Part shown: in pieces, positions 1 to 3,152 of the stretch
Position numbering within the stretch: the stretch's first letter is position 1
How the letters are laid out: each line of letters starts with the position of its first letter
NCBI GenBank assembly: GCA_022821845.1
Contig: JAJECT010000036.1
Location: 1-54,949 of the forward strand
Origin: Rhodothermales bacterium
GTDB lineage: Bacteria > Bacteroidota > Rhodothermia > Rhodothermales > VXPQ01
Direction: 5' to 3'
DNA length: 54,949 bases
Notes under the pieces: generated by a model
Seen by the model: only the letters and a program-made list of their open reading frames with translations
What the model was told of the DNA's origin: nothing
Databases searched by the model: none
Position numbers and translations under genes: made by a program

Positions 1-1
1 C

Positions 2-124
2 GAGATCGAGCGCTTGTTCCGGCGCCTGAAGGGGTATCGGCGCATCTTCTCGCGCTTCGAAAAACTCGATGTCATATTCCTCGGCTTCGTCGTCTTCGTG
101 CTTATCGTCGATGCATTGCTTTAG
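2..124 (+). pseudogene. C-terminal end of an IS5-like transposase (runs off the left edge)
   Basis: The frame is open at the left edge and ends at a TAG at 122-124, giving about 40 residues. The segment ERLFRRLKGYRRI followed by RFEKLD matches the C-terminal helix of IS5-group DDE transposases, in which the Glu of the E-R-x-F-x-x-L-K pattern is the third catalytic acid. The rest lies outside the window, so whether the copy is intact cannot be seen. It stands directly before a Uma2 gene and an AT-rich operon, as expected in an accessory region. Confidence 0.6.
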
Positions 125-182
125 TGTTAACAGGCCCTAATACAGACAATTCGCCGCCTAAGTTTTTTAACCGGGCTATCTC

Positions 183-782
183 ATGGAAGACGCAACCACT
201 CCAACCCGCTTGCGCCCTGTCCGGTACGGCGAGCGCCCCCGCTCGATGACGCTGGAAGAATATGCGGAGTCGGACGAACCGGCGGACGGATATCGATACG
301 AACTGGTCCGCGGCCAGATGGTCGCGCAGGAGCCTGCCCCAGGCGCACCGCATGGACGTAGCCAAAACAGACTGGTATGGCGCCTTAATAACTGGATGGA
401 AGCGTTCGGGCAAGGCGAAGTTTTTGCCCAAGTCGGCTTTATCGTGAGCGATAACCCGGCGACGGTTCGGGAGCCAGATGCAGCCGTTTTGCTCAAGCGG
501 CGACCCTGGAAAGGCGAACCCGGCAACTGGATACGCGGTGCCCCGGACGTGGCCATCGAAATCCTCTCCCCGTCGAACAGACCGGGAGAAATGCGCGAAA
601 AGACCAGCGATTATTTCTCCGCCGGAGCCCTCCGCGTATGGATCGTGGACCCCAAGACCCGCACCGTAACAATCCGCCGGGCGGACGGCCCGGAAACGGT
701 CTTCCAGGAAGGAGACCGGCTTGAAGACCCGGAGGTCTTGCCGGGGTTTGCACTGGAGGTGGAGGATGTGTTCGGGGGATAG
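183..782 (+). CDS. Uma2 family (DUF820) restriction-endonuclease-like protein
   Basis: A 199-residue protein, normal length for Uma2. The core pattern is visible: ELVRGQMV in the N-terminal third, REPDAAVL in the middle, then PDVAIEILSPSNRPGEMREK, which carries the Asp and Glu-x-x-S of a PD-(D/E)xK nuclease fold, followed by YFSAGALRVWIVDP. The family is widespread in mobile and multicopy settings in cyanobacteria and FCB bacteria; its substrate is not established. The ATG at 183 lies about 60 bases after the transposase end. No partner gene is adjacent. Confidence 0.85.
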   Translation: MEDATTPTRLRPVRYGERPRSMTLEEYAESDEPADGYRYELVRGQMVAQEPAPGAPHGRSQNRLVWRLNNWMEAFGQGEVFAQVGFIVSDNPATVREPDAAVLLKRRPWKGEPGNWIRGAPDVAIEILSPSNRPGEMREKTSDYFSAGALRVWIVDPKTRTVTIRRADGPETVFQEGDRLEDPEVLPGFALEVEDVFGG

Positions 783-921
783 GCGCTGCCCAATACTTGG
801 ATTGGTACGCCTGTTCTGTGAGGAACCTGATTCCTGCTCCCGGATATACGACTTGCAGGGGCTTCCCTTGAATTCTTGAATCCAGTCGCCGAAAAAGGAC
901 TTCAATCTATCCTGTGAACTC
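783..921. other. Short intergenic stretch after Uma2
   Basis: About 140 bases between the Uma2 stop and the truncated nucleotidyltransferase start. A minus-strand frame beginning at 923 reads about 48 plausible hydrophilic codons here before it becomes pure antisense of Uma2. I cannot support it as a gene; it may be decayed coding DNA. Confidence 0.3.
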
Positions 922-996
922 ATGCTTGCGCTACACCCCGAAGAAAAAATATGGCTCGATGCGTACCGGAAGGCGCTTTTGGATTATTTTATTTAA
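922..996 (+). pseudogene. N-terminal remnant of a nucleotidyltransferase-like (MNT) gene
   Basis: A 24-codon frame (MLALHPEEKIWLDAYRKALL, then DYFI and TAA). The opening resembles the N-terminus of small MNT-type nucleotidyltransferases, where PEEKxWLxAYRxAL is followed by a PGLV stretch and the GSxxRG catalytic motif. Here the homology stops at the junction with AT-rich DNA near 985, and the catalytic part is absent. I infer that the AT-rich segment cut this gene. The stop overlaps the 3' end of the minus-strand gene at 993. The match is from memory of the family, so confidence is moderate to low. Confidence 0.35.
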
Positions 997-1754
997 AATT
1001 TTACTGCAATAGTCAATGAATATTTTGTTTTTTCATATATTTTTTTATTGTATTTGATCTTCGATGCTATTGGTATCTTGATAACAGATTTTAAATTGAT
1101 AAGAATTTTCAAGTTTTGATGTGCTTCATTCGTCAAATTTAAATTAAAGGTATATTCTTGAGTAGGATTGTCAATCTTTGCTTTATTAATTAAATCTTGC
1201 ATAATAATATCATTCGACAAACCGGTCTGTTGCAAAAATTTAACAGCATTTTCTATATTGGGTTTAGTGCCAACAAATTTCGCTCCTGAAGACAGGTGTT
1301 CCACCAACAAGGCAGAAGATTTATTTTGCACATTTACCTTACCGCCTGCCACTAAAGCTACTCCAGCTTTTACTTTAAATTTGTCTTCTCTACCTCTATC
1401 ATTTAATTTTATTTGTTCAACTTTAACTTCACGGGCACCCAAATAGCCGCATAATGTAGAAAAATGCAACCATTTGGCTAATGAAATTTCATCTATGGCC
1501 TCTGACTCAAGGTGATACTGATTCTTATCGAAAGGATTTTGTATCAGTATAGCGCCCGCTGTCACAAGCCCTTGGTCAACCAGCTTTTGCACCACTGGGT
1601 CAGACTGCGATGGAAACGAAGCAAGCAGGTATACATCCTCATTGTCGAGCAACTTACTCCCTTCATTGTCGAGATATAAATCCGCAATATCATCTTGATC
1701 GAGCACCAAAATAACTTTACGGCGCGAATGGTAAGGCCAAGGGTTATCAAGCAT
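993..1754 (-). CDS. Protein of unknown function, third gene of the TerB/GTPase operon
   Basis: A 253-residue protein I do not recognise. There is no signal peptide or membrane helix. The middle is mixed alpha/beta. The last 60 residues alternate polar and hydrophobic residues (TFNLNLTNEAHQNLKILINL, later KYSLTIAVKF), as in a small beta-rich domain. It starts 42 bases after the GTPase-like gene on the same strand, so co-transcription is likely. Codon use is strongly AT-biased compared with genes right of 3 kb, which supports acquisition by transfer. A role together with the GTPase and TerB proteins is inference from context only. Confidence 0.7.
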   Translation of the reverse strand: MLDNPWPYHSRRKVILVLDQDDIADLYLDNEGSKLLDNEDVYLLASFPSQSDPVVQKLVDQGLVTAGAILIQNPFDKNQYHLESEAIDEISLAKWLHFSTLCGYLGAREVKVEQIKLNDRGREDKFKVKAGVALVAGGKVNVQNKSSALLVEHLSSGAKFVGTKPNIENAVKFLQQTGLSNDIIMQDLINKAKIDNPTQEYTFNLNLTNEAHQNLKILINLKSVIKIPIASKIKYNKKIYEKTKYSLTIAVKF

Positions 1755-1796
1755 GATTTGTTTTTTGTTTAGGTGATATGGAGGTCGATTAAGCGG

Positions 1797-2603
1797 TTAG
1801 GAAGTTGTTTCTCTAAAAAATCCAAATGCTTCCTTTAGAATTCGATGCGTCATATTTTTTGCAGTCGCTTCCGATTCAAGGCTGCCGCATACGATTCTTA
1901 CTTTAGATCCCGTGCCAATTTTCTTTTTAATATCTTGGATAAGTGGTGTTTTATCTATCTTATTTTCCAATTCAAGTATTTTGTTTGACAATGAATTATC
2001 TATAGATAAATTGGAAAAATCAGAATCAACAAGATCGCAATGGCTTCCAATAATAAAAAAAGGCTCTTTTTTATTTGAATTTGTCAGCCATTTTGCAATT
2101 AATCCTATTTCATTGCGAATGCGTGATTCATATTTTTCATTTTCTTCCAAAAATTTATCTATTCGAATGAAATAAAAAATTATATCTGCTTCTTTAATCG
2201 ATGATTTCCAAGATGGATATTTATGTTCACTCCCTGATTCATCTATTATCTTGTCCGCATTAAATTCCATATCTTCTAGTTTGAATATTTGTACCGGAAG
2301 AGTAACGACATTAAGGGTCGCTTCATATTTGCTGGGCAGATTACCCTTAGATAGGAATGTAGCCAAAGTGGTTTTTCCCGGTGGACAGCCATCAATATGC
2401 GGACCAATAAAAAGGATTTTTTTGCCCTTGAGAGGGGAATTTTCTTTTTCCCGACGTTGCTTTTGTACCTGCCGATTTTTCCGTCGTTTCTCACGCTCTT
2501 CCTCTTCACGCTGCTTTTTTTTACGTCGAGCAGCGGCAGTAGCAGCACCACCGGCAGTAGCGGCACTCACAAGTGCCCATATTACAATTACCGGTAATGG
2601 CAT
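1797..2603 (-). CDS. Membrane-anchored GTPase-like P-loop protein
   Basis: I chose the ATG at 2603, which follows the TerB stop after one base (TGATATG), over an upstream start at 2636 that would overlap TerB. The protein (268 residues) opens with one hydrophobic helix (PLPVIVIWALVSAATAGGAA), then a very basic and acidic stretch of about 40 residues, then a nucleotide-binding domain. G1 is GPHIDGCPPGKTTL, which looks lengthened relative to GxxxxGK[ST]. A DESG is a candidate G3 (DxxG). GSHCDLVD sits where the [NT]KxD G4 is expected. The specificity residue is therefore non-canonical, and GTP binding is inferred. AT-rich like its downstream partner; middle gene of a three-gene operon. Confidence 0.75.
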   Translation of the reverse strand: MPLPVIVIWALVSAATAGGAATAAARRKKKQREEEEREKRRKNRQVQKQRREKENSPLKGKKILFIGPHIDGCPPGKTTLATFLSKGNLPSKYEATLNVVTLPVQIFKLEDMEFNADKIIDESGSEHKYPSWKSSIKEADIIFYFIRIDKFLEENEKYESRIRNEIGLIAKWLTNSNKKEPFFIIGSHCDLVDSDFSNLSIDNSLSNKILELENKIDKTPLIQDIKKKIGTGSKVRIVCGSLESEATAKNMTHRILKEAFGFFRETTS

Positions 2604-2604
2604 A

Positions 2605-3012
2605 TCAAGTACCGAAAAGGTCGCGCTCCAGGTCAAGCGCGGACAGGTGAATATTTAACATGCGCTGGAAATCGTCAACCCGATCTGGCGCCACCCCGGC
2701 AGCCACCGCAAATTCGAATAGCAGGTCCATTTCTGCATTATGTAAATAGCCATCGGCTTTGGCGAGCACATAGGCATTTTTAATGGCCGCCGCAACAATT
2801 TCGCGGGGAGCCGTAGCCACGGTTGCAAGTACGCTGTCCTTATCCGGAGGCGTATCGGCCAGTCGAAAAAGATCCTCTTTCAGCGAATCATCCGCAGGGC
2901 TTACCTTGAGCACATCGTGCAAAACGGTACGCTCGTTTTCGTCGAACCGACCATCTACCCAACCGACGAGGGCAAGCATCTTCGCCTGAAGAGCGGTCAT
3001 GTCACTATACAT
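2605..3012 (-). CDS. TerB-like (tellurite-resistance/DjlA-type helical) protein
   Basis: A 135-residue all-helical protein: KMLALVGWVDGRFDENERTV, then AIKNAYVLAKADGYLHNAEM and LLFEFAVAAGV. The D-G-x-x-x-x-x-E acidic pattern, present twice, is the TerB/TerB-N metal-binding type of signature. I prefer the ATG at 3012 (MYSDMTAL; 3000 is an alternative) because the frame upstream to 3120 reads an unlikely sequence through a ten-G run. First gene of an operon with a GTPase-like protein one base downstream. TerB domains recur in stress-response and phage-defence contexts; the role here is not known. Confidence 0.75.
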   Translation of the reverse strand: MYSDMTALQAKMLALVGWVDGRFDENERTVLHDVLKVSPADDSLKEDLFRLADTPPDKDSVLATVATAPREIVAAAIKNAYVLAKADGYLHNAEMDLLFEFAVAAGVAPDRVDDFQRMLNIHLSALDLERDLFGT

Positions 3013-3100
3013 GGGCAAGGGCCGTATCGATGGCTCCAGAAATCCGGGGGTTATTGGGGATCGCTGCCAAGGGCAAGGCAACGACGCATCCCTAAAATAG

Positions 3101-3110
3101 CCCCCCCCCC
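3101..3110. repeat. Ten-base poly-C (poly-G on the minus strand) tract
   Basis: Ten consecutive C on the plus strand, about 90 bases ahead of the chosen TerB start. With exactly ten G on the minus strand, an ATG at 3120 is in frame with TerB; eleven G would lead into an in-frame TAG within a few codons. This is the layout of a slipped-strand contingency tract, though the extra N-terminus does not look protein-like. Confidence 0.6.
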
Positions 3111-3152
3111 TTGATTCCATGAAATTTTCGTGAAGAAAAATATCCCCTCCCC

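Follow-up and report, generated by a model that had tools for sequence, protein, structure and literature searches.

A TerB gene and a putative membrane-anchored GTPase-like gene within a three-gene insertion at a variable site of a Rhodothermales genome

Shango (SngABC) is a three-gene anti-phage system that combines a TerB protein with an NTPase and occurs in variable loci (PMC10250203). A TerB-like domain is also found in DjlA, an envelope-signaling cochaperone, where it adjoins a membrane helix (PMC11709261), and bacterial Ras-like G domains have been described in the Rup proteins, single-domain GTPases of under 240 amino acids with Ras-like G1 to G5 motifs, whose group 1 accompanies uncharacterized membrane proteins (PMC4316618). 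Here we compare with these systems a trio of genes on the minus strand (order A, B, C; positions 993 to 3012) of a window of 54,949 nucleotides, which is one contig of the 2.8-Mb genome of a Rhodothermales bacterium. Like Shango, the trio is a three-gene unit with a TerB protein (A) and an NTPase-like protein (B) at a variable locus. However, whereas Shango consists of a large TerB_N-TerB-TerB_C protein, a BrxC/D-like ATPase, and a helicase, the trio encodes a 135-residue stand-alone TerB protein, a small GTPase-like protein, and a protein without a family match (C). None of SngA, SngB, and SngC was matched by the trio with the PADLOC models, which did recover SngA and SngB at a positive-control locus (L017), and we rejected identity with Shango since these partners are missing. 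The control locus lies in a genome of the same order (G038:C152) and carries a Shango-type pair, SngA (with TerB_N, TerB, and TerB_C domains) followed by SngB. More broadly, A, B, and C matched no PADLOC model at E values up to 10.

B shares a predicted bacterial Ras-superfamily G domain with Rup and MglA, and some Rup operons likewise have membrane partners; in contrast to these GTPases, B is not a single-domain protein of 150 to 240 residues, has no MglB partner, and is atypical in its G1 and G4 motifs. An MglA-MglB system was rejected because no MglB/roadblock gene lies beside B, whose neighbors are TerB and the protein without a family match, and membership in Rup was rejected given the 268 residues of B, its predicted membrane helix and linker, and those same two motifs.

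The coordinates, strand, and spacing of the trio were confirmed, and the tight minus-strand arrangement anticipated from the sequence held: the TGA of A is followed after a single base by the ATG of B, and 42 bases separate B from C (Table 1). An in-frame ATG at 3000 provides an alternative start for A. The stop-free stretches of B and C extend over 285 and 267 codons, whereas 1000 block-wise shuffles gave 201 codons at most (mean, 103), so that both open frames are longer than chance. Upstream of A, we found no Bacteroidota-type −7 element (TAnnTTTG). An 18-base stretch in the same region (3030 to 3047) coincides exactly with a piece of prfB from several genomes of the genus, probably by chance.

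Table 1. Positions of the three genes and of the features around their insertion site in the window
Feature	Position	Strand	Description or basis
IS end, DDE transposase 3′ end	1-124		DDE_Tnp_1_2, E 0.0015, below the curated cut-off
Uma2-family PD-(D/E)XK protein, complete gene	183..782	+	PF05685, E 9.6e-33
HTH antitoxin 3′ remnant of a RelE/HTH pair	845..918	+	Alignment with L073 and annotation of L073
Nucleotidyltransferase 5′ remnant	924..983	+	Cut by the insertion; intact relative in G003:C3 is NTP_transf_2
Inserted segment with the trio	984..3143	.	Comparison with genus relatives L012-L015, L073 (G003:C3), L012/L014
Gene C	993..1754	-	253-aa protein, no family match
Gene B	1797..2603	-	268 aa; predicted N-terminal hydrophobic helix (~3-23), basic helical linker (~25-57), Ras-superfamily-like G domain (~58-268)
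Gene A	2605..3012	-	135-aa TerB-like helical protein, net charge -11

Comparison with related genomes revealed that the trio is an insertion in a variable site. The left junction is sharp, at 983/984 within the start of a nucleotidyltransferase gene, and the AT-rich segment begins at 984; positions 857 to 983 are 79% identical to the 3′ end of an HTH antitoxin gene and the 5′ end of a nucleotidyltransferase gene in a genus relative (G003:C3). In that relative, an intact row of RelE toxin, HTH antitoxin, and small nucleotidyltransferase genes is present (L073, positions 1200 to 2251), of which the window keeps a fused remnant (845 to 983). The right junction lies near 3143, upstream of a RidA gene. 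In the nearest relative (G001), the downstream DNA is 96% identical and the trio is absent, the 3′ end of a Uma2 gene (corresponding to window positions 707 to 789) standing directly before the RidA gene (corresponding to the window from 3144), and Uma2 sequence likewise adjoins RidA in G003 and G004. Of five further genomes of the genus that were searched, these three have the site in readable form, each with the Uma2 3′ end beside RidA and no trio, and searches of all five recovered none of A, B, and C. The original prediction of an accessory region is borne out, and horizontal gain is supported, by the genus comparison and by base composition (below), and the cut-off nucleotidyltransferase start that it described proved to be the left junction itself. 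An IS end, said to adjoin the segment, is present in the window, but only at the contig edge, with the complete Uma2 gene intervening. The 3′ end of the DDE transposase gene falls exactly at that edge, so that repetition of the IS is the probable reason for the break in the assembly. Genus-type flanks on both sides make mis-assembly of the trio itself less likely, yet it lies close to the contig end. There is no tRNA at either junction, and no terminal or target-site repeats are evident at the edges of the insert. Several full or partial Uma2 copies lie near one another at the corresponding site of G001 (L012, positions 1 to 3121), in addition to the fragment beside RidA, and the Uma2 gene of the window matches a PADLOC candidate defense model (PDC-S03; E 3.1e-20).

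The base composition of the segment is not uniform. GC content is 31 to 41% over most of positions 1000 to 2250, compared with 60 to 67% downstream, and third-position GC (GC3) is 0.27 to 0.28 in B and 0.33 in C, against values near 0.8 in the flanking genes. Hence a GC content well below that of the flanks, as originally predicted for the whole trio, applies to B and C but not to A, which has 53% GC and a GC3 of 0.55. B and C are also alike in codon use, being rich in AAA and ATA, while A differs. The GC-rich start of B reflects an alanine-rich sequence and not its third positions (GC3, 0.28). Since the composition changes between A and B, A may have come from a different source than B and C.

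A scores 26.5 bits (E 8.6e-6) against the Pfam TerB family (PF05099), above the curated gathering cut-off of 24.4, which identifies it as a weak but genuine TerB domain and bears out the earlier assignment. Its closest known counterparts are the TerB family (PF05099 and COG3793) and the TerB-like domain of DjlA, although A is divergent, its nearest PDB match being 2ou3 (COG3793) at an E value of only 0.005, and no other Ter genes lie beside it. Within its order, A has three weak TerB matches (E 0.004 to 0.009), one of which is the SngA protein of the Shango system in G038, and it matched neither plasmids nor viruses.

The predicted architecture of B, with a membrane helix, a charged linker, and a noncanonical GTPase fold, found agreement in hydropathy, motif order, and structural modeling. 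Its N terminus, LPVIVIWALVSAATAGGAA, is the sole strongly hydrophobic stretch of the protein, and a single N-terminal membrane helix is predicted here. Of residues 25 to 57, 16 are basic and 7 acidic, and this stretch forms one long helix in the AlphaFold2 (AF2) model. From residue 58 onward, motifs follow one another as in a G domain (GPHIDGCPPGKTT, DESG, PSW, GSHCD, and CGS). Of these, DESG provides the DxxG of G3. The P loop reads G67-x8-G76-K-T, with 8 residues in place of the usual 4 of the canonical G1 (GxxxxGK[ST]), and the G4 position reads SHCD, without the usual lysine of [NT]KxD; given these departures, we call B Ras-like only. Considering the longer P loop, the SHCD in place of NKxD, and the lack of a glutamine after DESG, GTP hydrolysis by B may be weak or absent. 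The B model was predicted from a single sequence and has a mean pLDDT of only 56; with this limit, Foldseek gave a best E value of 9.9e-5, to Gtr1-Gtr2, and VIA-align a Z score of 11.0 to Arl1 (rmsd, 3.0 over 143 residues), the top structural matches being Arl, Rag/Gtr, and Rho GTPases. The match to Pfam Roc (PF08477) reached 15.6 bits, under its cut-off of 27. We conclude that the fold of B is probably Ras-superfamily-like (Arf/Rag-like) and noncanonical, at low model confidence. In SRbeta, as in B, a membrane helix at the N terminus precedes the G domain, and the tryptophan after G3 (PSW in B) recalls the Arf family. The likeness to SRbeta, Arf, and Rag lies in the predicted fold of the G domain; however, identity to B in the structural alignments is only about 9 to 21%, and B differs from these proteins in its enlarged P loop, its SHCD motif, and its bacterial operon setting.

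C had no match in Pfam, NCBIfam, PADLOC, or the PDB at E values up to 10, and its PHROG match (E 0.32) did not exceed chance. Structure prediction failed for want of an alignment, the AF2 model (pLDDT 33) being unusable, and the beta-rich C terminus proposed earlier is plausible from the sequence. With its stop codon some 9 bases within the left junction, C seems to end naturally, the alternative being truncation.

Relatives of B and C were found neither in their own order nor among 395 genomes of the phylum, and B had none in 164 genomes of the order of G235, in 246 of the order of G139, or in GTDB genome contigs. Plasmids and phages (both searched by tblastn for B) and viral contigs likewise yielded no relative of either protein. 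B gave six matches at E values of 0.001 to 0.01, of which the four examined were unrelated proteins or chance alignments; C gave two phage matches at E values of 2 to 4, and a Rhizobium plasmid match from a relaxed search (E 6) was dismissed as chance. We also scanned TerB neighborhoods, taken from a PF05099 search of the 395 genomes, and a small GTPase of the B type lay beside TerB in none of the 50 loci scanned, 30 of which had short flanks. A wider pattern search combined real proteins with artificially varied rows, made up solely to loosen the DNA patterns, with confirmation on real sequence; these widened scans were all empty, but they detect close relatives only, so that their emptiness is weak evidence. 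By these searches, the trio appears as an orphan within the collections covered. A literature search found nothing on TerB with a GTPase in phage defense.

The gene layout, the TerB domain, and the insertion into a variable site are solid observations, to which B adds a predicted membrane helix and, at low model confidence, a G-domain-like fold. That A, B, and C interact, that B binds nucleotide, and any function given to C or to the trio as a whole are inferences. As a tentative reading, it is possible that the trio is a horizontally acquired, membrane-tethered GTPase-switch module for stress or phage response. In such a module, the N-terminal helix of B would tether the protein to the cytoplasmic membrane on its inner side, its Ras-like G domain would switch state with the bound nucleotide, and the acidic TerB-like A would serve as an adaptor or sensor that sets the state of B, possibly via the basic linker. 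A and B would be made at matched levels through translational coupling, probable given the 1-base gap, and C would be the output protein; the unit would most likely serve in responding to stress or phage at the membrane. This reading draws on the collinear tight layout, on the TerB domain of A and the helix, linker, and G motifs of B, and on a variable genus site rich in toxin-antitoxin and Uma2 remnants, while the lack of relatives in our searches, the different composition of A, the atypical G1 and G4 and missing glutamine after DESG in B, the lack of a −7 element upstream of A, and the absence of a match to any known defense model count against it. Phage defense in particular is suggested by the Shango analogy and by the toxin-antitoxin and Uma2 remnants at the site, given the PADLOC candidate match of Uma2. 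It is tempting to go further and speculate that the locus is a new kind of bacterial conflict system. Its switch, linking a sensor of the TerB type to C as effector, would be a Ras-like GTPase that is anchored in the membrane and has a remodeled nucleotide site, in place of a helicase or an AAA ATPase, but we consider this distinctly unlikely.

Alternatively, the trio might respond to metal, oxidative, or osmotic stress of the membrane or envelope and not serve phage defense, with TerB sensing, the GTPase relaying, and C acting on the envelope. TerB is named for tellurite resistance, B has a predicted membrane anchor, no defense model matches A, B, or C, and DjlA sets a TerB-like domain beside a membrane helix in an envelope-signaling cochaperone (PMC11709261); nevertheless, the toxin-antitoxin and Uma2 remnants at this variable spot are more what one expects around conflict genes, and Ter operon partners were not seen beside the trio. 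We regard this account as rather unlikely. We give much the same weight to a serious rival, namely that the segment is hitch-hiking foreign DNA without joint function, with an AT-rich donor for B and C and a different source for A. The GC3 step and the change in codon use at the A/B border would then be expected, as would the uniqueness of the trio in the genus and phylum sample and two junctions that both look illegitimate, with gene fragments. Random joining, however, rarely gives a coupled border of 1 base, and the three frames are intact in the single strain available, with B and C well beyond chance length.

A further possibility is a diverged bacterial Ras-family signaling set of the Rup or MglA kind, working in cell biology rather than in conflict. 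The small Ras/Arf-shaped G domain that Foldseek and VIA-align recovered for B would fit such a set, as would the uncharacterized membrane proteins with which Rup group 1 sits (PMC4316618). Yet neither an MglB/roadblock partner nor Rup-type neighbors were seen, B has its own helix anchor in addition to its atypical G1 and G4, and the trio is a local insertion, whereas Rup groups are vertically inherited; we regard this reading as highly improbable.

If the switch-module reading is correct, a Ras/Arf-like GTPase would act at the membrane within a TerB-containing stress or defense module, and to our knowledge small GTPases have been little described in bacterial immunity. The trio would then provide TerB domains with a concrete partner, and C would add a protein family that currently has no annotation, all within an operon that, at 2 kb, is tractable.
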